Of a stretch of 64,000 nt of DNA, positions 5,447 through 35,163 are shown in pieces. The stretch comes from Isoetes taiwanensis. Lineage: Eukaryota; Streptophyta; Lycopodiopsida; Isoetales; Isoetaceae. The stretch is taken from the NCBI GenBank assembly GCA_021234155.1, contig JAJEKV010000057.1, positions 3,689,821 to 3,753,820 of the forward strand. The letters are read 5' to 3'. The position numbers and the translations under genes were made by a program. Each line of letters begins with the position of its first letter. Within the stretch, counting starts at the first letter, position 1. The notes beneath the pieces were generated by a model, which did not search any database, was not told where the DNA came from, and worked only from the letters and a program-made list of their open reading frames with translations.

Positions 5447-8400
5447 ATGAGGATAATTAGTTGGAATTTAAGGGGGATTAAGGGGCCCCTAAAGAGAAGG
5501 AGGGCAATTGCTCAACTCAGACAGTATAATGCTGACATTACAATGCTGCAAGAACTGAAGCTCCCCAAATTCGAGGCATCTAATCTGGGTGACTAGATCT
5601 ACCCTGGGGCTTCCTCCATATGGATGGAAGCAAATGGAACTAAAGGTGGAATGTGTATTATCTGGAAAAATCTCCATCATATCTCCTTCTGCAATAGCAT
5701 TTCCAAAATGTAGCAAGCTGTAACTTTCTCATTAAATAACTCAACCTTTGGTGTTATTAATATTTATGCTTCTACTTGCTCTGGCCTGAACTTAGCCCTT
5801 GGATCATTAGCAACTCATCTATAGATTGGATTATGGGAGGGGACTTCAATAATACTCCAGCTTGGGACTTGAAACTGGGGAATAAAATAAATATGTCTTT
5901 AACTGAAAAAAGGAACTGGGATAATTTTATGGCTGACTCCTCCCTAATTCATATTCCATCTTCCACCTCTATATTCACTTGGTCCAATAAGCAGAAAGAT
6001 CAAGATAGAGTCTATTGTGCTTTAGATAGATTTTATATCTCCAATCCAAATTCAGATTTCTGGGATAATTGCTTTGTAACAAGTGATGAAGGTACATCCA
6101 TCTCGGATCACCAACCTCAATTTCTCAGTACCAAGCATCTTCTGAATTCTCCAAGAGATGGTAATATTCCCTTTAAGTTGAATTGCACTCTGCTGCAGAA
6201 TAGCTCATTCCAACAGAAGTTCTCTCAGTTCTATCAATCTATTGAGTCTATGCATCCAAATCATTCCATGAAACACTTCTACCACAAGATTAAAAAATCT
6301 AAGGAATGGATTAAGAGCTGGGCTAAAAACAAGCATATGGCTAAAGTGCAAGAGAAGGAAAATCTAATGAATAAAATGAAGGAGATAAGATCTCTGCTCC
6401 AGATTGATCCTTTGAATTCTAATCTTCATGTTGGTGAGGAGCTCCTTGAGAGGCATCTGAAAAGTATAGAAGAGAGAGAAGCCAAATTCTCTGCCATTAA
6501 ATGCAAGATTAAATATAATAGTGAGCTAGACTATGGCAGCTCAAAATTTTTCTTCAGAGTGGCTAAAAACAGGCTTTTAAAAAACTCTATAAATCAAGTA
6601 AACAATGGCTCTGGCTCTATGCTCACTTCGACCTCTGAGATCAAAAATTTCTTCCATGATAGTTACTCTTCTCTTTTTAAGAAGACTGAGCTTAATGCAA
6701 ATGAGATTTTAGCCAAAGATAAATTTCTGGCAGATTTAAATGCAGTATTGCCAAATTCCATTGATAGCATGGATGTATCCTTTACCTCAATCCCTACTGA
6801 AGATGAGATTTACAAGACTCTGCAGAGTTTCTCTATTAACAAATCTCCTGGCCCTGATGGATTTCCTCCAGAATTTTTCATAAAATTCTGGGAAATTATG
6901 AAATTCGACATTATTGGTCTTGTGCATGGTTTTTGGGCCTCTGGTAACTTGCACTCTTCTATCTCTGCTGGTTTCATTACCTTAGTGCCAAAAGTAGATA
7001 ATCCTACATCTTTTGCTGAATGGAGGCCAATATCTTTAACAAATTCTTCCTATAAACTATATGCTAAAATAATTGCCAGCAGAATTCAGGCTTATTTACA
7101 GAAAAATATCAGTGTCAACCAATCTGCCTTTCTACCCAACAGATTTATTCTAGATAACTACATCAGTGCAATGGAAGGTCTCCACTGGAATAGGATATCA
7201 AATCAGTCTTGCATTCTTCTAAAATTGGACTTCAAGAGAGCATTTGACACTGTTGATTGGGAATTCATTGACTTGGCTTTAAATAAAATGGGTTTCCATC
7301 CTAAACTCATTACTCTTATTCATGGTCTGAATTCCATGTCCAATTCTGCTATTCTAATAAATGGATCTCCCTCCAAATGTTTTCCTTTGGCCAAAGGAGT
7401 AAGGCAAGGCTGCCCTTTAGCTCCATATATCTTCCTCATTGTGGCTGAGATGCTCACGAGATGTGTAGTCAGTATGCAAAATTCTGGATCTTTAATTGGT
7501 CTCAAGCTTCCAAATAACTTAGACATGCTCACTATATCTCAATATGCTGATGATACGTTTGCCTTCCTAGATTCCAATCCTGCCAATGTGAGTAGATTTT
7601 TGGATCTCATTAGAAATTTCTCAGCTGCCTCAGGGGTCCACTTAAACCTTGACAAAAGCAAAATCATTGGTGATGTAGACCATTCTTCCATATGTGGAAT
7701 TTCTGTTCTAAATTGCAATCAAGCCTCGAATCTCTTAGGTATGCCTCTCTCTCTAAATACAAATCTGAGAGGTCTTTGGGATCCTATTCTGCAGAGGATA
7801 AAGAAAAAATTAAATAATTTCAGGAATTGTCTTTCCTTTGCAGGTAGAACAATTATTGCAAATTCAGTACTAGCATCTTCCCATGTGTATTTCTCATCTG
7901 CCCTTGTAGCACCTAAAGCTATTTACTCTGAATTGGAGAAAATTATCAGAAACTTCATCTGGAATGGATCTCACCTAGTTAACTGGAAGTCAATTGCTAG
8001 ACCAAAGACCTTTGGAGGTCTAGGCTGCAAGAATCTCTACCTGCAAGCTTGCTTCCTTGCAGGTAAATACATATGGAGATCAATTAGAGGTGATTGCTCC
8101 CCTGCCTCTCAATTTGTAACTCATTGGTTAAAAGCTTCATATCCTACAGGGCATCCAACTATTAAAAGTTCCCTTCCTGAATCTGCCTTTGTTGAGCTTC
8201 ATCCTGCTCCAAATACCTCCCCCTTAATGAGGAATTTAATTAAGGCCTGGAATCTGATCCATCCTGTGCTTCAGAAAAATGATCTCTCATCTGCCACCAT
8301 GAACACAAGCTTGTTTTGGTCTCCAATTTTTTCGGATCATAACTCTAAAGTAATGCCCATAAAGCATCCAAGGATTTATAGTAAATGGTCTAATATTGGA

Positions 8401-9252
8401 ATATCTACTATCAAAGATCTTTACAAGAATAATAACTCTATTTTATCTTGGACTGCTGTGAAGCTTGCTCTTAAAGGAACTTCCACTGATAAAAATATCT
8501 ACCATCACTTCAAATCTATTTTGGCTAACTTCAATAAGTTTAATGACTACAGCAGATCTATTGGTTGTTCTATAAATGGGAGGTTGATTTATAAGGTCAA
8601 AGATATTTACAATCTGCTAAATGTCAATGATTCTCCAGTAAAGGCTAGTGAGAAGTGGAATTTGAATCAAAATCAGACTTTGGATTTGTTTAAAAATATC
8701 TGGGAATCTTACTGCTCTCCAAAGATTTGTTTTTTTATTTGGTTGATAGCTCACAAAAGCCTCACGAATTTGGTCTCACTCTCCAAAAGATGTACTGTTT
8801 CCACTGTGTGTCACTCTGGTTGTCTCCGGGATGAAACTTTAGAACATATTTTTCTCTGTCCTAAGTTGAGCCCTTTCTGGACTTGGTTTTTTAACAAACT
8901 TGGCAATCATCTCAAGAACAGAAACATCAATACTATCATTGATTTCATTCAACAAGGAGACATTATAGCCAATACTTTGGTCCACACTGCCTTGTGGAAT
9001 ATATGGAAGTCCAGAAATAGAATTCTTTATTCTTCTAAACATATGTCTGTTTTTTGGATTAAAATGCATTTCCAATTTGATGTTGAGGCAATGGCTACAT
9101 GTCATAAGAGGAAACATGGAGACAACTACAACTCCAGCTGGAACTCATTGGGGTTTTCCAGGGGCCAATTTGACTTATTTGTTTCTAAATTAAATGTTGT
9201 GGATTCTAATGCACCATTCTCTGATTCTGACAGAATACATGATGTTCCTTAG
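5447..9252 (+). pseudogene. LINE ORF2: endonuclease, reverse transcriptase, zf-RVT
   Basis: The ATG at 5447 opens the apurinic endonuclease with ISWNLRGIKG and a later LQELK motif. TAG at 5594-5596, a second stop near 5711 and a frame change near 5776 break it. From 5776 the frame stays open for 1158 codons. It carries the endonuclease motifs GGDFNN and SDHQP, then reverse transcriptase with WRPISL, LKLDFKRAFDTVDW, GVRQGCPLAPY and the catalytic YADDT at about 7540. It ends with a Cys/His zf-RVT region around 8700-8900 (FFIWLIAHKSL, HIFLCPKLSPFW). Gene order and motifs match plant L1 LINEs. The endonuclease half is dead, while the reverse transcriptase looks intact. Confidence 0.9.
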
Positions 9253-9715
9253 AGGGGAAGGTGCTACAAAGTTGGATACTGATATTGATAACTATGAGAT
9301 CACTTTGCATCAGAGTCAGCCAACTAAGAAGAGGAAATTGACCCTGAAAGAATTGTGTGACATGACTGATGAATTCATCCAGGAAGTAGAAAGTTCAAGA
9401 AAAAGGGAAGCTCTTTGGGCAGAGATATTCACGAGAGAATTCATGCAAATGCACATTATGTTTGAGTTCATCTTCAATACGCATTTCAGTATGTCAGAGA
9501 GGCAGTTATCGAAATACAGGGAATTATATTATAGCCATAAGCTTCTCACAGATTTACATGGTACCTTGCTGCTGCTCAAGGGAAAGGAAAGCCTAAGTTC
9601 ACTGCTGTTACAAAATGATTGTGGTAAAAATAGATATTCACATGGCTCCACAACTGATTTTTACAGACATTACAATCAGTGGTTCGATAGAAATCTGGAC
9701 AGTAGCCATAGCTAG
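9243..9715 (+). CDS. Possible third LINE ORF or displaced ORF2 C-terminus
   Basis: An open frame in a different phase overlaps the end of ORF2 (in-frame start at 9194 or 9239) and runs to 9715. It encodes a charged segment with a nuclear-localisation-like KKRKL, then KELCDMTDEFIQEVESSRK, a likely helical stretch. It may be the original C-terminus of ORF2 shifted by an indel, or a separate small ORF. I know of no matching domain. Confidence 0.35.
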
Positions 9716-10155
9716 TCTTTCCTTGGCTTTGGACCTCTGCTTACTCTGCCTTTCATCTTCCTGTCCATTGCAGAAGGTCAATCCCATGATTTTCATGATT
9801 CAGTTAGGGATCATGGATAGTATTTTTGTTTGCTTTTGCAGGAAAAAGAGGATCTCAACTCCATACAACACTTGACTTCAAAGGTTTTCTTCTCCAAATT
9901 TGGATTTGGATATCTCTCTCTTCTATGGGAGCTGACACTACTGATACTCTCTCCACATTTTCGGATATTATGTTTTAAAGTTTCATGGCTACATTGTTCT
10001 CATATTTCTTATTTGATGCTCACTCTAAATGAGTATCCTTTTTCTAACCATAACCCTGCTATATAGCAGCTTGGTTTATGGCTTGTATGGCTTTATCTAA
10101 TTAATGAAAAAATCTACCCTTACTCTCAAAAAAAAAAAAAAAAAACCAGATAACC

Positions 10156-11460
10156 CAATTCTGTATAAAGATTTTTAGTTACATCTATTTTGCACACGTG
10201 ACATTGCAAGTTCTCTATACACTTATGGAAGAAGAATAGATGAATTTGTGACCACAAGATAATTGGACGTACAAGGAATACAGAAGGTCATGCCACAAAC
10301 CAAACAACCCGAGACTCCATCTGCAAATGGCCAGTTCCCAGCTGTAGGTATTATCAAGGTACTTGTTACAAAGTTTGCTCTCAAATGCTGCAAGTTTGAA
10401 ATTTTAGTTTGCAAGTCTGCCTGTGCTTCAACTTTAATTGTGACCAACGTATTCAGGTGACTAATGGCATCTTCTATTTCCTGCGTATTGTTCGCAGATT
10501 CCTTGTTCTTCAGGAGGGAAAGCAGAGTAAGTCCCAGCAACTTTTCTTCATCTCTAAACTTAGACAGAGCTGCATCCTCTTCGGGACAGATTTCTTCCAA
10601 CGCTTGCAATTTTTCCTTCACTTCCTTGATGTCTTTGCAAATAGATGCAGCTGATGCATCATATCCACGAAGAAGACCTTTTGTTTCGACCAGCTGCATC
10701 TGCTTTTCCTTCAACTGATTTTCTAAAGTCAAAACTTCCTCACTAAACAATTTCAAATCTGCTTCCAAATGGGATATGGAATTGGCAATGTTGGAATAAG
10801 CCATTTGTTCTCTCACAGTCCTTGTCTGGTTATTCCTCATTGAAATTTGCATCGACTTCCATGCAAATCTTGCCCAATTAACTCTGAAATTAACAGGATT
10901 TGCAATTGCCTTCTTTGTATGCTGCCATGCAAATGCCCTAGCAAACTGAGTTCTTGCTTCCTTATTTTTCAAACCATGCTGATAAACCCTTTGAACCAGA
11001 TCATAGTTCCTTTTGAAACTTAGGCCGAATTTGGTGCAGCTTGATCTTATTATCCTTTAGGTTGCAATTCCATACAGATAGAAAATCATTCTGATTACGA
11101 TCATTCCAAGTCAATGTTCATGGATCTCTGCCTTCATTACAAAGACCTCTATACACAGCAAACTCCTCTATTGAAGATGCTATCCGCATTTCCTACAGAT
11201 CGATTAAACGCATGCATGCAATGAGGAAAAAAAAAGGCATAAAAAACACTGGCGCTTACCTTTAAATCGAAAGTTTCTGCTGAAGGAAGTATTCCGCAAC
11301 TTTCTCTGGAATTGTTATGAATCTGCATGTCCATCCCTGCTTTTGAAAAAGAGGCATAGGGATGATTGGAAATCATGAAGGGAGGACGGGATGAGCTCAG
11401 CGGGTCCGACATGCCCGACACGAAAAATGATGACGGCTCGTCATCGTCCTTCTTTTTTTT
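10156..11460 (-). pseudogene. 5' half of the LINE-interrupted coiled-coil gene
   Basis: Minus-strand reading gives a first exon from about 11460 or ATG 11412 to 11260 (ends AAAG|GTAAGC). It is Ser/Pro-rich (MSDPLSSSRPPF) with an acidic lead-in, DDDEPSS, that stays open upstream of the ATG. A second long exon, about 11054-10370, encodes a basic, aromatic segment (ARAFAWQHTKKAIANPVNFR) followed by about 120 residues of strong heptad character (LEADLKLFSEEVLTLENQLK, then VKEKLQALEEICPEE). The downstream exon begins near 10165, 11 bp upstream (minus sense) of the LINE insertion site. The coiled coil suggests a structural or complex-forming protein, but I recognise no family. Upstream coding continues up to the border of the H3-bearing retroelement, which may have removed part of the 5' end. 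Confidence 0.5.
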
Positions 11461-11600
11461 AACAAAAAAAAATTGGTATATTAGTGCTTCATGGGTGCTT
11501 ATCTAGCGTGAAATTGCCCCCCAACTCCACGCTTAGAACCACTACATGGCAGTTTGTTGGGTCAAATTTGGACAAATCATGGTCAAACATGGTCGACTTG

Positions 11601-12079
11601 GGTCCATTCGCGCGAAAGGGGCCTGTGTTCGCGACGCAGAGGCCTTCGGCACGACTCGACCGGAGTGGCTTGATTTTGCTAAAAATTGAACATTTCTAAA
11701 GGTTATAAAGCACTAAAATGACATGCAAAAGTGCAGCAAAATGACATGCTAAGCAGTAACTTATTTTATGCTAAAATGACATGCAAAAGTGCAAATTTTT
11801 GTGATTCGGGTCCATTCGCGCGAAAGGGGCCTGCGTTCGCGACGCAGAGGCCTTTGGCGCGAATCGACCGGAGTGGGCCAATTTTGACTTGCTTTCTTAT
11901 GTTTTTAACTAAAATTAAGTGCTACATTGCATTTCTAGACAAATTTTAAGCATTCTAACATCTTTTAGTACAAAAATTGGGTCAATTATGCCCGAAATCT
12001 GGTGACTCGGGTCTATTCGCGCGAAAGGGGCCTGCGTTCGCGATGCAGAGGCCTTTGGCACGAATCGACCCGAGTGGGT
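11601..12079. repeat. Three spaced ~70-bp GC-rich repeats (period ~200 bp)
   Basis: Copies at 11601-11668, 11809-11878 and 12009-12079 share a core starting GGTCCATTCGCGCGAAAGGG and ending CGACCGGAGTGG, in otherwise AT-rich DNA. Each holds the palindrome TTCGCGCGAA and a small stem CTGCG...CGCAG. The spacers also share CTAAAATGACATGCAAAAGT motifs, so this is a degenerate tandem array of about 200-bp units. It lies 3' of the H3-like ORF. Confidence 0.8.
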
Positions 12080-12260
12080 TGCCATTTTTCAACCTTCTAA
12101 GGGGAAATCTTACATAAATTTTACAATTAGGAGCATTCTAACTATAATGGGAAGGAATTCTACAACAATTTTAATTTATATAAGAACATTATTTTATACA
12201 TGCAAGAAATTAATTTATACAAAAAGTACTTTTATATATGTTCGAATTGAGTTACACCTT

Positions 12261-13379
12261 CTAGGGCTTCTCTTTGCGGATCCTTCTCGCCAGGTGGAGG
12301 TCCTTGGGCATCACTGTCATCCAGTTGGCGTGGATTGCGCATAGATTGCCCTTTTCGAAGAGTTGGACAAGCTCCGCTTCCGCTGCCTCCTGCAGAGCTC
12401 GGACCGTTAGGGGTGTAACCCTGTAGTTGATCCGAAAGTCCTGCATTATTTCCCGGAGGAGCCGTTCGAATGGCACCTTCCGGATCTCCCTAAACACACG
12501 GGCGTGCTTTGAGTTTGGCCCGTGGTGGACTTTCTTGGGCGGCTCCGACCGTGGCGGTGGCGGCGGCTTCGGCTGGTTCTTGGGCCTCCCTCCTTTAACG
12601 TACTTTTGTACATTCTGCTTGCAATACCAGTCATTGTACCTCTTCCATCTGCGGAGGTACTCCTGGTATGCCTTCTTGCGCCACTAGAATTCACGATCCT
12701 GCCTGAGCATGAATTCCCGCTCGCCCATCTTCTGCTTCTTTATTACCTTAGGTAGCTTGGCCCACTTAGGGTAAGGTGGGCGGGCGTCGAGGTTTGAAGA
12801 TTCCTCGGCGTCTTGCTCGGGCTCTTCCTCCTCCTGCCGGGCTTCTTCGATGTCCTCTTCCTCCTCCTCCTCGTCGGTAGCTTTCCGACGAGGTTCTTGG
12901 ATATGGACCGTGCCCCTGGCCGGTCGTGGTCCCTTTTGGACCGCTTCTCTCTCCTTTATGCCTCCTCCCTCTCCCTCTTCTTCCTCTGGGCTCTGTCTTT
13001 TGGCCATTCGGCCACTTTCTCCTTGCCCTTCCTCTTCCTGGAGGTGCCTACTTCCTCCTCCTCCTGCTGCTGCTGTTGCTCTTCTTGCTCGTCCTGTTGC
13101 TGCTCTTGCTCCTGCTCATCCCCCTGCTGCTGCTCCTCCTGCTCCGACGGCCAGCTGAGGGTGACAGTCTCGTCCGTCCATTAGGGCTCCGTCGAGGAAC
13201 TCTGCTCCCTCTCTTGGGAGGCGTGGAAGGTGTCGTCTATTGAACTCGACGACTCCTCCTTTCCCCTGGGCTTGAGATGCTCGAGGATCTTCTTCCTTCC
13301 CACCACCTGCTGCTGCTTCCGCCATAGAAGGTGTACGCCTGGGGCTATACTTCCTGGCTGTGCATTTGGTGCGTGCCAT
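12261..13379 (-). pseudogene. Histone-H3-like ORF inside the LTR element, broken
   Basis: ATG at 13379 gives MARTKCTARK, a near-copy of the histone H3 N-terminal tail, followed by a long Glu/Gln/Arg-rich insert. The last ~75 codons (about 12485-12261) are an H3 histone fold: [16 protein letters not shown] (helix 1), [19 protein letters not shown] (helix 2), [17 protein letters not shown] (helix 3). By eye, roughly 47 of 74 residues match canonical H3 without gaps. Loop 1 has the length of ordinary H3, not the longer CENH3 loop. A stretch [16 protein letters not shown] precedes the fold. The tail and the fold share a reading frame, but the middle needs two frame changes, and TAG at 12684-12686 plus a stop near 13116 interrupt it. 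The position is where gag is expected. H3 packs DNA in nucleosomes; a role here is unknown. Confidence 0.75.
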
Positions 13380-13923
13380 ATCTTACGATTAAGAAAACTG
13401 ATTAGGTTAAGCTGAAGATCAAAGGAGAGAGGTTTAGGGAAAGATAGGGAGAAATGGGTGGCAAAATGGTATTTAAAACGGAAAGATGCTCTAGGAAATA
13501 TTCTCCTACTATTAATAGCCCTATTAATTAGCCTCCCTTATTAATTACTCCACTATACATATTAATGTATGGTTACTGCTACTTTGAAATTCGAATTTTC
13601 CTAATGGTTTGAAGTGCCAATTATGGATTTGCGCCATTTTTCACCTGGGTCTCGGATTGGGATGATTCTTCGACCATTTTGGGTGAACTTTGATGCTGAT
13701 GAATAGTTTTCACTCCAATTTTACTAGAATATTAATTTGATTCATTCTTTTTCCCACGTCTAACAATTTAGCCTAACTTTACGAACCCGCTACCTAGGAG
13801 AAAAAAATTTTCCCCTTATTTTTGAGGTTCAATGGTGGAATTTTCATCCCACAGCCTATTAGGCCTGTTAGACTACTTAACTAGGGATATGGTCAGTGCT
13901 AGTTCTTGGTCAACCAAGAACAT

Positions 13924-13936
13924 GGCTCTGATACCA
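13924..13936 (-). other. Primer-binding site for initiator tRNA-Met
   Basis: The minus strand reads TGGTATCAGAGCC one base inside the LTR end, the standard plant retrotransposon primer site complementary to the 3' end of initiator tRNA-Met. It fixes the element orientation as minus. Confidence 0.85.
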
Positions 13937-13937
13937 T

Positions 13938-15529
13938 TGTGATGCTCCCTACAAAATATACGGCGCCCGGCCGTACACTCTGTAGGAAATCCCCCATCCG
14001 ATCCTCCGACCGCACGGGCCCTCCATCTATCCCGCACCCCAGGGTATCCCTAGTGCGGAAGGGGACACGAAGGTGTCTTGCGCGCCCTTCCCCTATGGGC
14101 TCCTATAACAGCGGAAGCATAAACATCGTCAGAACTAACAATAACAATACATCATACTACCTCAAAGGGTAGCCCATCCCCATATCCATAGATACAATAG
14201 AGATAAGCACGTGCCGTAAAACATGAGAGCTCCTACCCAAGGCTCAGACTCATGGGGAGGTAGACTGACGGCTAGTGCACAAGATAGAGCAGACCGAGTC
14301 ATAACAATGGCGGGGCTGGCTCGAGATAATGGCTGTCCGCCCCTCCTGTGTATACTTTGCAGATGGGCTAGATTGAGCTCTGGTATGACTCTAGCCTTCC
14401 GGATACATAATTTCATGGTATCACCCATCGAGACTACTCCAGGTTGCATCTCCCCAGTCCGTCGAGGCAGGAAGGGTTCCATCTCCCCTTCTCGGGGTCT
14501 AGAGGTTCTACGGGCAGCTAGAGAATCGTGGCGACACATCCCCAAAACAAGAGGCAGGTCGTCACCTGCAGCTCTTGAGAGGCAGGGCGACACCATTGCC
14601 CCAGGAGGTGTCGGACCCATGCCCGGCCCACTCGAAGTGACCGGCCATAAGCCTATCCCGCTATGGGGTCCCCAGTAGCCGCGCTCAGCAGGGACCCTCC
14701 CTCCGTCTCGCTTCTAGCCCTGTTATGTAGTGCTGAGTCATATCATAGCCCCCGTAGCTCGGTGGATTCCTATGCACAGGCCGCATATAATAGGAACTAA
14801 AGGGTCTAACTAGGAGCATCACTAAGTAATGGCTACTAGGTCTCTACCCCCCTTCCCAACACAAGAGGAGCAAATATGATCAACCAACATCACATATCCA
14901 TCTAACATGATACTAATGAGAATAACATCTAAACCTAATCATACATATCTAACTTACAGTTAGGGTTCATTGATTAGGGTTCAAGATCTAAACTAAGGGT
15001 TCTAGGAAGGCTTTAATATCTCATCTGGAGTCCTAACTTCTAGATGATCTACAAAGAACTCTAATCTAAATACCTGCTCTTGAGGAACTCCCTCCTACTC
15101 CCGGCGTCTCCATGATCTTCAAGGTGGTCGAAGTAGTCCTCGCTCCAAGGTCATGCACACACTCTGGGGGCTGCTGTGCTAGGCTATGCCACAGCAAACG
15201 ACTCTCGAAACGGAGTTTCGAGCGCGAAGAAGGTTCCCAGAGTGTTGGAGCCAAGAAAGAGGCCTAGGGTTAGGGTTTAGGACTATATAGGTTAGGGTTT
15301 ACATGTTATGCCATGTGGCTCCAATGGGGTATGGTCGTGTGGCGGTTGCCCAAAGGATAAGGCCGCATGGAAATTGGCCATATCCTAGGGGTATCTAAGT
15401 TATATGAATAACTTAGACATGCACCCAATGCCACTAATTAAGGATATACAAGGCTATGAAGGTAGACTTGTATAGTGATGGACCCAAAAATATACGTATT
15501 TATGGCATATATTTCCCTGGAACGTCACA
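13938..15529 (-). repeat. 1.6-kb LTR of the H3-bearing element
   Basis: The minus strand begins TGTGACGTTCC and ends GGAGCATCACA, giving TG...CA ends with a short terminal inversion, directly next to the primer-binding site. A TATA-like CCTATATAGTCC lies about 250 bp in (near 15285). Only one copy is seen in the window. Small ORFs inside (14162-14678 on both strands) look like chance. Confidence 0.7.
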
Positions 15530-16378
15530 AATATTCCTGTGTTATTCGTTTCCCTGTTCTGTTGTCATTTCCGTGTTCTAAAAATTAAGGACCTGTTGTG
15601 TTTTCTGTGGTCGTGTTTTATAACTATGGCATTAACGCCTCCTCACGCACAACACGTGCCCTCCAAATGCCTTTGCCAATATCACACAAAATCCCATCCT
15701 AGCCATCAATCCAATATATTCCATAATAGATTATCTAAAATTAAAATCAAGGCCCTTATAAAACGTCACTCCCGCTAGCAAGAGTTGCCCCAGGCAACCC
15801 AAAAATTAAAATTGCCAGCGGACGGGAAATAATTTAAATTAATGGAGGAGATTAATCCAGCTCGTCGATCCAAAAAAAATGATCTGATTGGCGGGATTTA
15901 GACTGCGAAATGAAGAACTTGTTCGAGGCAAAATAGGGCGAAGGTCTGTGCAAGCTCAATCGTAGCCAAGCTATGGCGGAGGTATGTGCAAGCCCAATCA
16001 TAGCCGAACTATGGAATCCAGCTACGGCTTTCTAAAGCATTTGCCTTTGCTGCATGCGGAAGCTTAGAATCGAACTGGGTAATAGGTACAATATTCAGAT
16101 TATATTATGTTCTTGTAGAACTGATCACATTCGTATTTTTGCTTCTTACTCTCTTCAATCAGCTTGCAGATCCTTTGATCTATCCAAGAAAACTAGCCAA
16201 AATTTTAAACTAATATTTCCAATACTTTACGAGAGAAGAAATGGCGGTCTAGCTATCATCTCAAAGCTCGGTTCGGAAATGGGCATTGCTAAATTGCATA
16301 TTGAGATAGCACTCTACTCCAACATTCATTTTGCTTCTGTTTTGTGCATTCCTTTACAATCTTATTCATATTTTTGAT
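15530..16378. other. Intergenic, no gene recognised
   Basis: The sequence has mixed composition with short chance ORFs only. A weak repeat (CAAGC..AATC.TAGCC.A.CTATGG) occurs twice near 15950-16015. No transposon ends are recognised. Confidence 0.4.
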
Positions 16379-22317: not shown

Positions 22318-22372
22318 ATTGGCTTATTATTGGCATTGCATAAGTGGTAAAATGAACCAAGCTCACTGTAAG

Positions 22373-23818
22373 TTAAAGACCTTTTGTTTTGAGATCACGA
22401 ACAAATGTTTCCAAATTCTTGCAAGAAGATCCGGAGTCCGAATATGCTTTCCTTGCTTCAATCTTAAACCTGCTAGCATTCTGTCTCACTTGCAACCCCT
22501 GTTTTTCTTTCATCAATTTCCCAATCAAATTTGTCACTTCATCTTTTTTGACCAGGTCCTGGTCTTTGCTCCTTGTAATTCTAAACCCAACCTTCCAAAC
22601 ATCTGATATGAAGAAACAGTTCATCCCCTGTTCTGCAATAAAAGGCCATCCAAGCATAGGAACTCCACTGTACAAACTCTCCAAGGTTGAATTCCAACCA
22701 CAATGTGTCAGAAATCCAGCCACAGCGGGATGATTTAGCACTTCAAACTGTGGCGCCCATGAAATAACTAATCCATTATCTTTGTTTCGAGCACAAAAAT
22801 CCGACATAAATTCCTCTGTTTTCTCTGCTAAATTTTGCCTCACAACTAACAAAAATGAGCAGCCGCTCTCTTCTAATCCTTTTGCAAGCTCTTGCAGCTG
22901 CTCCGCAGATAATACCGCAGCACTGCCGAAGGAAACGTAAATCACAGAAGAAGGGGGTTTCGAATCCAACCATTTTATGCATGATTTGTCCTCTTTCCAA
23001 AAGGGCTGAACCGCCTGACCGGAGGTCGAAATTAAGGGGCCTATTGCTAGGCCCTTTGGAAAATAGGACACTATATCTCTGTCTAATTCTTCAAAGGAAT
23101 TAAACAGAAGCCAATCTGCCTTTTTAGCCTGTGAAACTCTCTGAACGGCAGAAGAGATGGCTAGCCCATCTCGTTTCCCAATTTGAAAATCCGCTGGAAA
23201 ATCCGAGATTTTGATAGCGGGAAATCCTGGCATCCAAGTGATTTCCTTATCCGCATCATCTGCAAACACAAATATCTGAATAACCCACAGATTTTAAGAC
23301 ACAATTCGCCAAGTAGAAGCAGCCATTTTACCTTGGGTTTTAACAGGAAGAGACCCTTCGTCAATTAGGCGAAGAAGATGGTCATACAAAGCCAAGGACG
23401 CCGGAGAGGCAGTCCAAAATGCGGCAGAGTAAACGCCCAAATCAAGAGCCACATCCGGCGCCCAATCTAAAAATGGGTCAAAAACTATGCAACATGGTCG
23501 ATTGCTGGTTTCAAAAAGGCGATGCAACAGTTCCGACACTGAAATGCGCAAGGATTTTTTATCGGATCTGATAAATGCGAGAACTTGGGGGTCAGAAACT
23601 GGCCCATGAAATGGATCGGCATAGCTTTCAATTTGAAAAGAAGTGCCATATGATTGGAGCAGGCGATCCTTGAAGGATTGATTTACGGCTAAGGTAATTG
23701 AAAATCCATGGCTGAGCAATTTTCGAGCAAGGGAGATCATGGGAGCTAGATGGCCCTGTGTTGGGAAACACAGAAGCAAAAGATTGAACTTTGAACTTTC
23801 ATTGCCAATTCCGGGCAT
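22373..23818 (-). CDS. UDP-glycosyltransferase (family 1), copy 1
   Basis: There are two exons, 23818-23332 and 23259-22373, with a 72-bp intron (CAAG|GTAAAA ... TTTGCAG|AT). They total 1374 bp, 457 residues, the usual length for plant UGTs. These cytosolic enzymes move sugar from a UDP-sugar to small acceptors. The N-terminal half has PTQGHLAPM with the catalytic His and a later FDPF/LDWAPDVA acceptor-side motif with the partner Asp. The C-terminal half has the PSPG donor box, from WAPQFEVLNHP through THCGWNSTLES to WPFIAEQ. ATG 23818 is chosen because it matches copy 2 and the family start. The frame is intact. The acceptor substrate cannot be told. A near-identical copy lies at 33633-35077 in the opposite orientation. 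Confidence 0.93.
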
Positions 23819-23991
23819 CTCCAAATGGCAGAAAGTTTGGAGCAGATCCCTCAAAATCACTCCTTTGCATTCTTTTTTAAGTCTGTTTGCTTTGTTCTCC
23901 AATCTGTGACTGCCACGTGGCAAAGTTTTAAAACCTGAATATGACAAAAATTTAGGTTTCTTGACGGCGGCAAACAGCATCTAAGATCAGA

Positions 23992-29792: not shown

Positions 29793-31041
29793 AGAGGGCA
29801 CCCGGATTCATGGTAGCATGATCTGCCATAACTGAACTAGATTTCTCCAACAACAAAGAACTAACCACAATCAAATTTTCCATGTGCTCAATTTCTGGAG
29901 CTTTTGAAACTGCTTGCTCCGCTCCTCTTAATTTAGCATCTCTTCCGGCATATATGGGCTTCAATTAGCCCTGCTTAACAGTTTCTATAGCTTCTTCTGC
30001 CGCTCCACCTGACGATGGCATTGAATCTACCTTCATAGGGAACAAATTAGAATGGGTATTCATTATTCTTTTCCTTGTAAGGAGTACCTTTCCACAACGA
30101 CATCTTTCTCTGCCTTTTCTTCTTGTGGATCCGTCTGATCATTGCTAGGGATTCTATCTTCAAATTGGATGCTTTCTGCTCCATCTTGATGCTCAACAAA
30201 GTCTTCTGGCAATGGTTTACAATTCAGCATCACAATTCCATCCAAACCTTTAGCAGCCGCCAGGTATCCAAAGGGATTCTTTAACCCCATCATTTTTCTT
30301 AGTCCTGTGGGCTTCAACCGTGTACCCATTAAAGCCAGATTTTGCTTGTAATTTTTCAGCAGCCTCTTCAAGGGCAACAGAATTTTCTGCCACTAGCCTA
30401 ATCCGGCCTGATGTGGGCATCTGCATTGGCCTAATCTGGTCTGATGTGGGCATCTGCATCTCTCCTTCATGGCTAACGGGAGCATTAATCTGGGCCCCTT
30501 CCCTCTGGACAACGAAGTCTTCAAGAACTTTGCCTTCTATCTCGGCCCTATAACTTCCTGCTTCAGCAACTAAAACTCTGCTTGGTTCTTCTTGATTTAG
30601 AAAATAATCCTCCAGCCGTGCATTCTTCTGTCTTTATCTGCAGAATCTTGCATTCTTCAAGAAGCTCTTCTTCCTCCCTGATAATTTCATCAAAGAAAGA
30701 GCTCTTCCAAAATTCTTCTCCTTCCATAGTCAAACAATCTAATTCTTCAAATCCCTTACTTCTATCTGATTGCATTGCTTAATGTTTAAGTCTTCTTCCA
30801 AGATCGATTCAGAGCTCAGGCTTTGATACCATGTTAAGTTCCAGAATGGTGAAGAATAGGTAGATGAGATTGAATAATGTGTATGAGCCAAACGTGGTAT
30901 ACAAAACATATATAGACACACCTTTACACCTAAGGACACGACTCTTCATCTTACTGGGATTGCCACCTCAGCGTGGTCACATGGCTCGCGCCATGTCATC
31001 AATCCTTGATCTATATGATCATCATAACCTATATTCTAACA
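29793..31041 (-). mobile_element. Short-LTR (TRIM-like) retroelement remnant
   Basis: A 210-bp LTR (31041-30832) starts TGTTAGAATATAGG, contains TCTATATATG and ends CTTAACA. It directly abuts the primer-binding site TGGTATCAAAGCC (30831-30819), a one-base variant of the tRNA-iMet site. Downstream are broken frames. One starts at ATG 30775 (Glu-rich, DEIIREEEELLEECK), then a segment at 30459-30250 (ALEEAAEKLQAKSGFNGYTV) and another at 30377-30063 (NPFGYLAAAKGLDGIVMLN). A 30-bp direct repeat (ATGTGGGCATCTGCAT) lies at 30410-30460. No polymerase and no second LTR are visible. Confidence 0.6.
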
Positions 31042-33163: not shown

Positions 33164-33632
33164 TTCGGAACAGAGAGATCCGGAATTATGGATGGCAAAG
33201 AACTGCTTCGCGGAACAGAGCTATCTGGGCGAAGCTATGGCAAAGAAGTGAAAATGCAGCCAAGCTATGGTAGAGCCCTTTCAAGATGGACTATTTGACA
33301 ACTCTATTGGCGGCACCACTAAACCGCCGCTAGAAAAAACACCCAAGAATTACTTGAAACTAAAAATAGTTGTAACCTCCAAGTAATCTGTCATGAAGGT
33401 TACTATAATGTGAAATGTAAACATGAATATACCAAGTTACATTGAAGACGTATCACTCTTTATAACCATTAGAAAGTCTCGTCAATATGGACTTCCTCTC
33501 GCAGTGGCAAGTTCTAAACCTCTAAATAAAAATAAATAAAATTTTTACGTTGATAGCCAAGGAGACAGACTTAAAAAGAAATACAAAGGAGTGATTTTGA
33601 GGGATCTGCTCCAAACTTTCTGCCATTTGGAG

Positions 33633-35077
33633 ATGGCCGGAATTGGCAATGAAGGTTCAAAGCTCAATCTTTTGCTTCTGTGTTTCCCAACACAGGGCCA
33701 TCTAGCTCCCATGATCTCCCTTGCTCGAAAATTGCTCAGCCATGGATTTTCAATTACATTAGCCGTAAATCAATCCTTCAAGGATCGCCTGCTCCAATCA
33801 TACGGCACTTCTTTTCAAATTGAAGGCTATGCCGATCCATTTCATGGGCCAGTTTCTGACCCCCAAGTTCTCGCTTTTATCAAATCCGATAAAAAATCCT
33901 TGCGCATTTCAGTGTCGGAACTGTTGCATCGCCTTTTTGAAACCAGCAATCGACCATGTTGCATAGTTTTTGACCCATTTTTAGATTTTGCGCCAGATTT
34001 GGCTCTTGATTTGGGCGTTTACTCTGCCGCATTTTGGACTGCCTCTCCGGCGTCCTTGGCTTTGCACGATTATCTTCTTCGCCTAATTGACGAAGGATCT
34101 CTTCCTGTTAAAACCCAAGGTAAAATGCTGCTTCTACTTGGCGAATTGTCTCTTAAAATTTGTGGGTTATTCAGATATTTGTGTTTGCAGATGATGCGGA
34201 TAAGGAAATCACTTGGATGCCGGGATTTCCCCCTATCAAAATCTCGGATTTTCCAGCGGATTTTCAAACTGGGGAACGAGATGGGCCAACGATTTCTTCT
34301 GCCGCGCAGAGAGTTTCACAGGCTAAAAAGGCAGATTGGCTTCTGTTTAATTCCTTTGAAGAATTAGACAGAGATATAGTGTCCTATTTTCCAAAGGGCC
34401 TAGCAATAGGGCCCTTAATTTCGACCTCCGATCAAGCGGTTCAGCCCTTTTGGAAAGAGGACAAATCATGCATAAAATGGTTGGATTCGAAACCCCCTTC
34501 TTCTGTGATTTACGTTTCCTTCGGCAGTGCTGCGGTATTATCTGTGGAGCAGCTGCAAGAGCTTGCAAAAGGATTAGAAGAGAGCGGCTGCTCATTTTTG
34601 CTAGTTGTGAGGCAAAATTTAGCAGAGAAAACAGAGGAATTTATGTCGGATTTTTGTGCTCGAAACAAAGATAATGGATTAGTTATTTCATGGGCGCCAC
34701 AGTTTGAAGTGCTAAATCATCCCTCTGTGGCTGGATTTCTGACACATTGTGGTTGGAATTCAACCTTGGAGAGTTTGTACAGCGGAGTTCCTATGCTTGG
34801 ATGGCCTTTTATTGCAGAACAGGGGATGAACTGTTTCTTCATATCAGATGTTTGGAAGGTTGGGTTTAGAATTACAAGGAGCAGAGACCAGGACCTGGTC
34901 AAAAAAGATGAAGTGACAAATTTGATTGGGAAGTTGATGAAAGAAGAACAGGGGTTGCAAGTGAGGCAGAATGCCAGCAGGTTTAAGATTGAAGCAAGGA
35001 AAGCATACTCGGACTCCGGATCTTCTTGCAAGAATTTGGAAACGTTTGTTGGTGATCTCAAAACAAAAGTACTATAA
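33633..35077 (+). CDS. UDP-glycosyltransferase (family 1), copy 2
   Basis: Exons 33633-34119 and 34191-35077 are separated by a 71-bp intron at the same position and phase as copy 1. Exon lengths (487 and 887 bp) are identical to copy 1, and the product is again 457 residues. The PSPG box, the QGH catalytic motif and the DPFLDFAPDLA region are intact, so it is expected to be an active UDP-sugar-dependent transferase. Differences are scattered single substitutions (MAGIGNEG here, MPGIGNES in copy 1). Homology to copy 1 extends from about 33562 to 35163, and this copy has an extra 35-bp or so just after the stop. The upstream fold-back element of copy 1 is absent. A recent inverted duplication is the simplest reading. 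Confidence 0.93.
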
Positions 35078-35163
35078 CTTATAGTGAGCTTGGTCTCAAT
35101 TTCCCCACGTCAGGGCTTGTGGATCACTCCTTCATTTTACCATTTATCCAATGCCAATAATAT

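Follow-up and report, generated by a model that had tools for sequence, protein, structure and literature searches.

Histone H3 genes have been captured by transposons, and host genes by plant long terminal repeat (LTR) retrotransposons; both kinds of capture are already in print. For the fungus Pyrenophora tritici-repentis, one report describes an H3-like gene (H3L) carried in hAT DNA transposons as 10 long-form copies and a short form (PMC3538342), and for Pseudocercospora fijiensis another describes hundreds of hAT-captured H3 copies, all inactivated save the original (PMC6710886). In plants, a review reports the transduction of host genes by LTR elements, as in maize Bs1, and the presence of additional open reading frames in such elements (ORFs; PMC7264820). 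We analysed 64 kilobases of Isoetes taiwanensis DNA (64,000 nucleotides of assembly GCA_021234155.1, contig JAJEKV010000057.1, positions 3,689,821 to 3,753,820 of the forward strand; hereafter the window, to which all positions refer), in which an H3-like ORF follows an LTR-like block on the minus strand. Our tentative interpretation, to which we give a probability of roughly 0.45, is that a plant LTR retrotransposon has decayed here to its 5′ part, and that its first ORF is a transduced and remodelled host H3 gene. Such an element was probably non-autonomous, relying on the pol of another element.

The locus is like the fungal hAT-H3L transposons of P. tritici-repentis and of P. fijiensis with its relatives in joining mobile-element features to an H3-like ORF (PMC3538342, PMC6710886). 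However, hAT-H3L is a fungal DNA transposon bounded by terminal inverted repeats and equipped with a transposase, whereas here we found a plant LTR-like block, a primer site and a long linker within the ORF. Plant LTR elements with transduced genes or extra ORFs are alike in holding host-derived or added coding sequence, but most of their extra ORFs occupy the interval from pol to the 3′ LTR (PMC7264820), whereas the Isoetes ORF comes directly after the leader; the word histone has a count of 0 in that review. Among the titles and abstract starts listed from one open-access library, none names an LTR element whose first ORF is an H3 gene, which is weak evidence of absence. Canonical H3 shares with the ORF the tail start and the fold, where identity across 73 residues reaches 66% among the sequences compared, but has about 136 codons against 372 here, where a linker stands for most of the tail and the fold carries R116W and K115N. 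CENH3 is alike in its H3-type fold and divergent N-terminal part, and unlike in its extra loop-1 residues, of which there are none here. The feature is real and unusual.

The H3-like reading frame

The ORF runs from an ATG at 13379 to a stop codon at 12263-12261 and comprises 1116 coding bases, or 372 codons, the last of which encode RRIRKEKP. A preliminary description of the locus, made from the sequence alone, had read its start as MARTKCTARK and its end as an ungapped H3 fold, and both readings are borne out. The start matches the H3 tail at nine of ten residues, while the second-best decamer in the six frames of the window matches at six. The fold aligned to H3 chains over 73 residues without gaps (E 2.1e-23; 46/73 identical to 2hue_B), and the Pfam Histone family matched it with an E-value of 8.9e-24 (84.5 bits versus a cut-off of 26.4). 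By sequence it is an H3-type histone fold, as in the H3 superfamily, and the predicted protein is clearly H3-derived at both ends. When the last 136 residues were modelled with AlphaFold, using as input alignment this piece together with 21 of the 57 database matches described below, the mean predicted local distance difference test score was 71 and the predicted template modelling (TM) score 0.42. A Foldseek search with the model gave 284 matches in the PDB, the best 50 of which were all histone-containing entries by title, with TM-scores of 0.34-0.36 by query length; since these scores are low, the assignment of the fold rests on its residues and not on the model. The full canonical tail with its K14-K36 region and alphaN helix was not found in the ORF, where the linker follows MARTKCTARK. 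The stretch before the fold shows an 8-residue gap in the MAFFT alignment versus an equal-length run-through in the Pfam match, and the alphaN helix appears ambiguous and not clearly recognisable.

The preliminary description had also recognised a long insert rich in Glu, Gln and Arg, to which we add Lys, and had placed tail and fold in one frame of a gene that is now broken. Indeed, that frame (frame 1) has two stops in 372 codons from tail to fold, at 13118-13116 and 12686-12684 in the linker; first-order shuffles predict 11.0 (P 0.0015, or 0.0025 when corrected for choosing the best of three frames). Eight stops occur in frame 2, the linker holding those at 13183-13181 and 12958-12956, and nine in frame 3. 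When the lowest-GC (guanine plus cytosine) codon position was used as a signal of the coding frame in 17 segments of 150 bases, it favoured frame 2 in seven, which start at 13379-13019, and frame 1, in which the fold lies, in ten, which start at 12959-12419. The signal thus switches along the ORF, which indicates two frame shifts that cancel each other. The linker has a coding-type codon structure, now broken by the two compensating shifts and by stops, and the present copy of the gene is dead and decayed. The GC content is 57.5% in the ORF region (0.575), 36.7% in the leader and 40.3% (0.403) in the stretch 3′ of the ORF. A chance match to H3 is excluded by the E-value of the fold, the ranking of the tail decamer and the deficit of stops.

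The LTR-like block and its surroundings

We tentatively take the ORF and the LTR to form one unit, in favour of which stand their common strand, the 559 bases between the LTR end and the ATG, and the exact primer site. The preliminary description had set the ORF beside an LTR and an initiator tRNA-Met (tRNA-iMet) primer site; we recovered on the same strand an LTR-like block, an exact primer site and an ATG where a first ORF is expected (Table 1). The tips of the block, TGTGACGTTCC and TGTGATGCTCC, form an imperfect inverted repeat when read inwards. The order of a TG...CA LTR and then a primer-binding site, as in LTR retrotransposons, is present in one copy, and the identity of 13938-15529 as an LTR is based on that copy. 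We take TGGTATCAGAGCC to be a primer site that would bind the plant initiator tRNA-Met. Sites of this type with at most one mismatch are expected 0.03 times in the window and were found twice, the one at 13936-13924 being exact. The other, with one mismatch, lies at 30819-30831 on the minus strand, and further down that strand there is a zinc knuckle ORF at 28908-27883.

Table 1. Features of the H3-like locus in the window
Feature	Position	Strand	Remarks
Presumed 5′ LTR	13938..15529	-	1592 bp; TG...CA ends; imperfect terminal inverted repeat; one copy
Primer-binding site TGGTATCAGAGCC	13924..13936	-	exact match; begins one base past the LTR end
AT-rich leader	13380..13923	-	between primer site and ATG; GC 0.367 over 13380-13937
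H3-tail-like start MARTKCTARK...	13320..13379	-	9/10 versus MARTKQTARK
Glu/Gln/Arg/Lys-rich linker	12486..13319	-	first half best in frame 2, frame 1 from about 12959
Histone H3 fold	12264..12485	-	74 codons, stop-free; 73 residues align without gaps; followed by the stop codon at 12263-12261
Three tandem units of about 205 bp	11564..12088	-	GC-rich palindrome in each; 3′ of ORF; copies 72-83% alike

Neither a second LTR with a target-site duplication nor the 3′ end of the element was found in the window; there is no partner LTR, which may have been lost or may lie beyond the window. The exact pattern of LTR end and primer site had 0 matches in IMG/VR, a viral collection in which little was expected. 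A Pfam domain scan covered four ORF pieces, exclusive of 11057-12260, and in these Histone was the sole family above its cut-off, with one further match under its own. We rejected the linker as a piece of gag: no gag-type Pfam family exceeded its cut-off in the pieces scanned, and none of 12 candidate proteins of about 205-651 residues matched linker residues 190-296 at E <= 1. Beyond the tandem units there is an ORF remnant at 10226-11056, and the piece at 10223-10972 is without a Pfam family above cut-off. The tandem units are a candidate 3′ part of the element. Their hairpins were compared with shuffles and gave z-values of -7.8, -4.1 and -1.1, so that two of the three fold far better; Rfam had no match over 9700-16000.

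Other features of the window include a 1158-residue open frame at 5776-9252 on the plus strand with reverse transcriptase and zf-RVT domains, which we take to be like a long interspersed nuclear element in its make-up. Two UGT-like gene copies at 22346-23892 and 33559-35105 stand in inverted orientation and are 96.3% identical over 1548 columns. The UGT-like ORF had 3555 protein matches; among the 120 listed, the top one by E-value was from Craigia (43% over 65% of the query) and was followed by two from Selaginella (44% over 99%). The named matches listed were from land plants, which by itself places the host among land plants, at a guess lycophytes or ferns.

Kinship of the fold and its past constraint

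When proteins were searched with residues 140-372, 57 of 1446 candidates matched at E <= 0.001. A length rule of 0.55 to 1.75 times 372 residues confined the candidates to about 205-651 residues, which left out ordinary H3s of 136 residues, including the host's own, and gag-pol polyproteins. By local BLASTP, every one of the 57 has its best match over the fold, in whole or in part. Several alignments extend into the acidic linker with about 20-40% identity, the best separate linker alignment having an E-value of 6.6e-6 in the set of 57 with composition correction off, and these linker alignments seem to reflect low complexity. In seven of the 16 matches inspected (P0003, P0009, P0011, P0020, P0025, P0044 and P0045), the fold is C-terminal or nearly so and more than 200 residues precede it. 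P0009, with 373 residues, has both a MARTK start and a C-terminal H3 fold. As a separate observation, P0009, P0011, P0020 and P0025 (sources ena, jgi and lgn) are H3-like proteins of 359-415 residues with long N-terminal additions. Scans for relatives in IMG/VR and in GTDB contigs gave 8 and 27 pattern matches, respectively, none of them confirmed, in a viral and a prokaryotic collection from which little was expected.

An H3 phylogeny including the fold, as suggested in the preliminary description, was built from 61 rows (the query, one PDB chain, three further sequences and 56 of the 57 matches). The query fell on a long branch (0.91) among the canonical H3 rows, four of the 57 inner branches were starred, and the tree resolves little beyond kinship with canonical H3. 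The best identity of the fold in the set compared was 66% over 73 residues, to the Juncus protein P0002. The fold derives from canonical H3 and not from CENH3. An origin from CENH3 was excluded, since the fold has no extra loop-1 residues and aligns to canonical H3 without gaps, with a score of 225 versus 114 for CENH3 (one sequence, from Arabidopsis); a lengthened loop 1 with CENH3-like residues was not found.

The past constraint on the fold was assessed against 44 of the 57 matches that are both diverged and complete, 13 having been dropped because they are identical to H3 at more than 62 of 73 residues or lack at least eight columns. Mean retention in these 44 rows was 81% at the positions kept in the query versus 58% at those changed, a difference as large as which arose in 7 of 100000 permutations. 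Since the positions that the query keeps are those that divergent H3-like proteins keep, the fold was once under H3-like constraint after its divergence from H3. In neutral simulations from H3 to equal divergence, in which we assumed 0.08 indels per substitution, 0.4-0.6% of runs stayed both stop-free and indel-free (joint P 0.004-0.006), and 73 intact codons at such divergence are unlikely under neutral decay.

Competing explanations and significance

Under the favoured interpretation, an LTR element would have acquired a host histone H3 gene through transduction. Remodelling would have spared the ARTK/ARK tail at the N-terminus and the fold at the C-terminus, with a long charged linker taking the place of the remaining tail. 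The element would have been transcribed from its LTR and reverse transcribed via the pol of its partner, and its H3-like protein may have paired with host H4 through the retained fold residues and tethered the RNA or the integration complex of the element to chromatin; alternatively it may have acted by mimicry of the H3 tail, ARTK and ARK being kept. R116 and K115 belong to the H3 face that serves H3-H3′ pairing and contacts DNA at the dyad. Because both are changed on this pairing face, the altered residue 116 (and K115) could weaken H3-H3′ pairing and tetramer formation.

Several results weigh against this interpretation. The four scanned ORF pieces gave no pol match, and there is no second copy of the LTR, the leader or the ORF in the window. 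The protein searches found no relative beyond the H3 fold: linker residues 190-296 alone (107 residues) had 12 word-sharing candidates of about 205-651 residues, none of them at E <= 1. The segment that contains the H3 tail signals frame 2 and not the tail's own frame, which is known from its letters and not from the codon-position signal; therefore the first frame shift is not located by that signal. In the fold, the query changes two of the 19 positions that 90% or more of the divergent rows retain (V71L and R116W), and its changes are not significantly conservative by BLOSUM type (P 0.06-0.25). The absence of stops from the fold is weak evidence by itself (P about 0.2), as 18-22% of the neutral runs were also stop-free. 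Finally, it may have been a host H3 variant that was under this constraint, prior to any capture.

This last point leads to the strongest alternative, which we regard as unlikely, namely that the ORF and the LTR adjoin by chance: an LTR element would have inserted on the same strand just upstream of a divergent H3-variant gene of the host, or its pseudogene, and would then have been truncated. The two have no common boundary and no second copy in the window, there are long H3-like proteins elsewhere, such as P0009, that start with MARTK and have the fold at the C-terminus, and H3-like constraint is what one expects of a functional host variant. However, this scenario requires not only the same orientation but also that the element lost its interior no more than 560 bases from where the LTR ends, and the protein searches found no protein with the same linker. 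Rather less probable still is a one-off passive transduction, in which an H3 gene or retrocopy from the host travelled with just one copy of an LTR element, was at no time of use to it, and decayed. The inactivated hAT-captured H3 copies of P. fijiensis, which number hundreds, are a precedent for such a fate (PMC6710886). In contrast, the coding-type linker and the conservation pattern of the fold suggest a functional period after divergence from canonical H3. That the H3-derived protein took over from gag altogether, packing the RNA or DNA of the element, is very improbable. Its position, with a charged linker and a histone fold, speaks for such a role, but the four ORF pieces scanned gave no gag, zinc-knuckle or capsid match, and non-autonomous elements commonly rely on the Gag of another element.

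Returning to the transduced and remodelled H3 gene as first ORF, the locus might represent a whole family of LTR retrotransposons in which a captured H3 was maintained under selection and used, through H4 pairing or as a tail mimic, for chromatin binding, integration steering or relief from silencing; we consider this extension doubtful. If the ORF proves to be a single captured copy, the locus would be a vivid yet ordinary case of gene transduction. If copies of the element keep the ORF, it would be a retrotransposon with its own histone, and would allow a direct test of how elements choose their sites and escape silencing.
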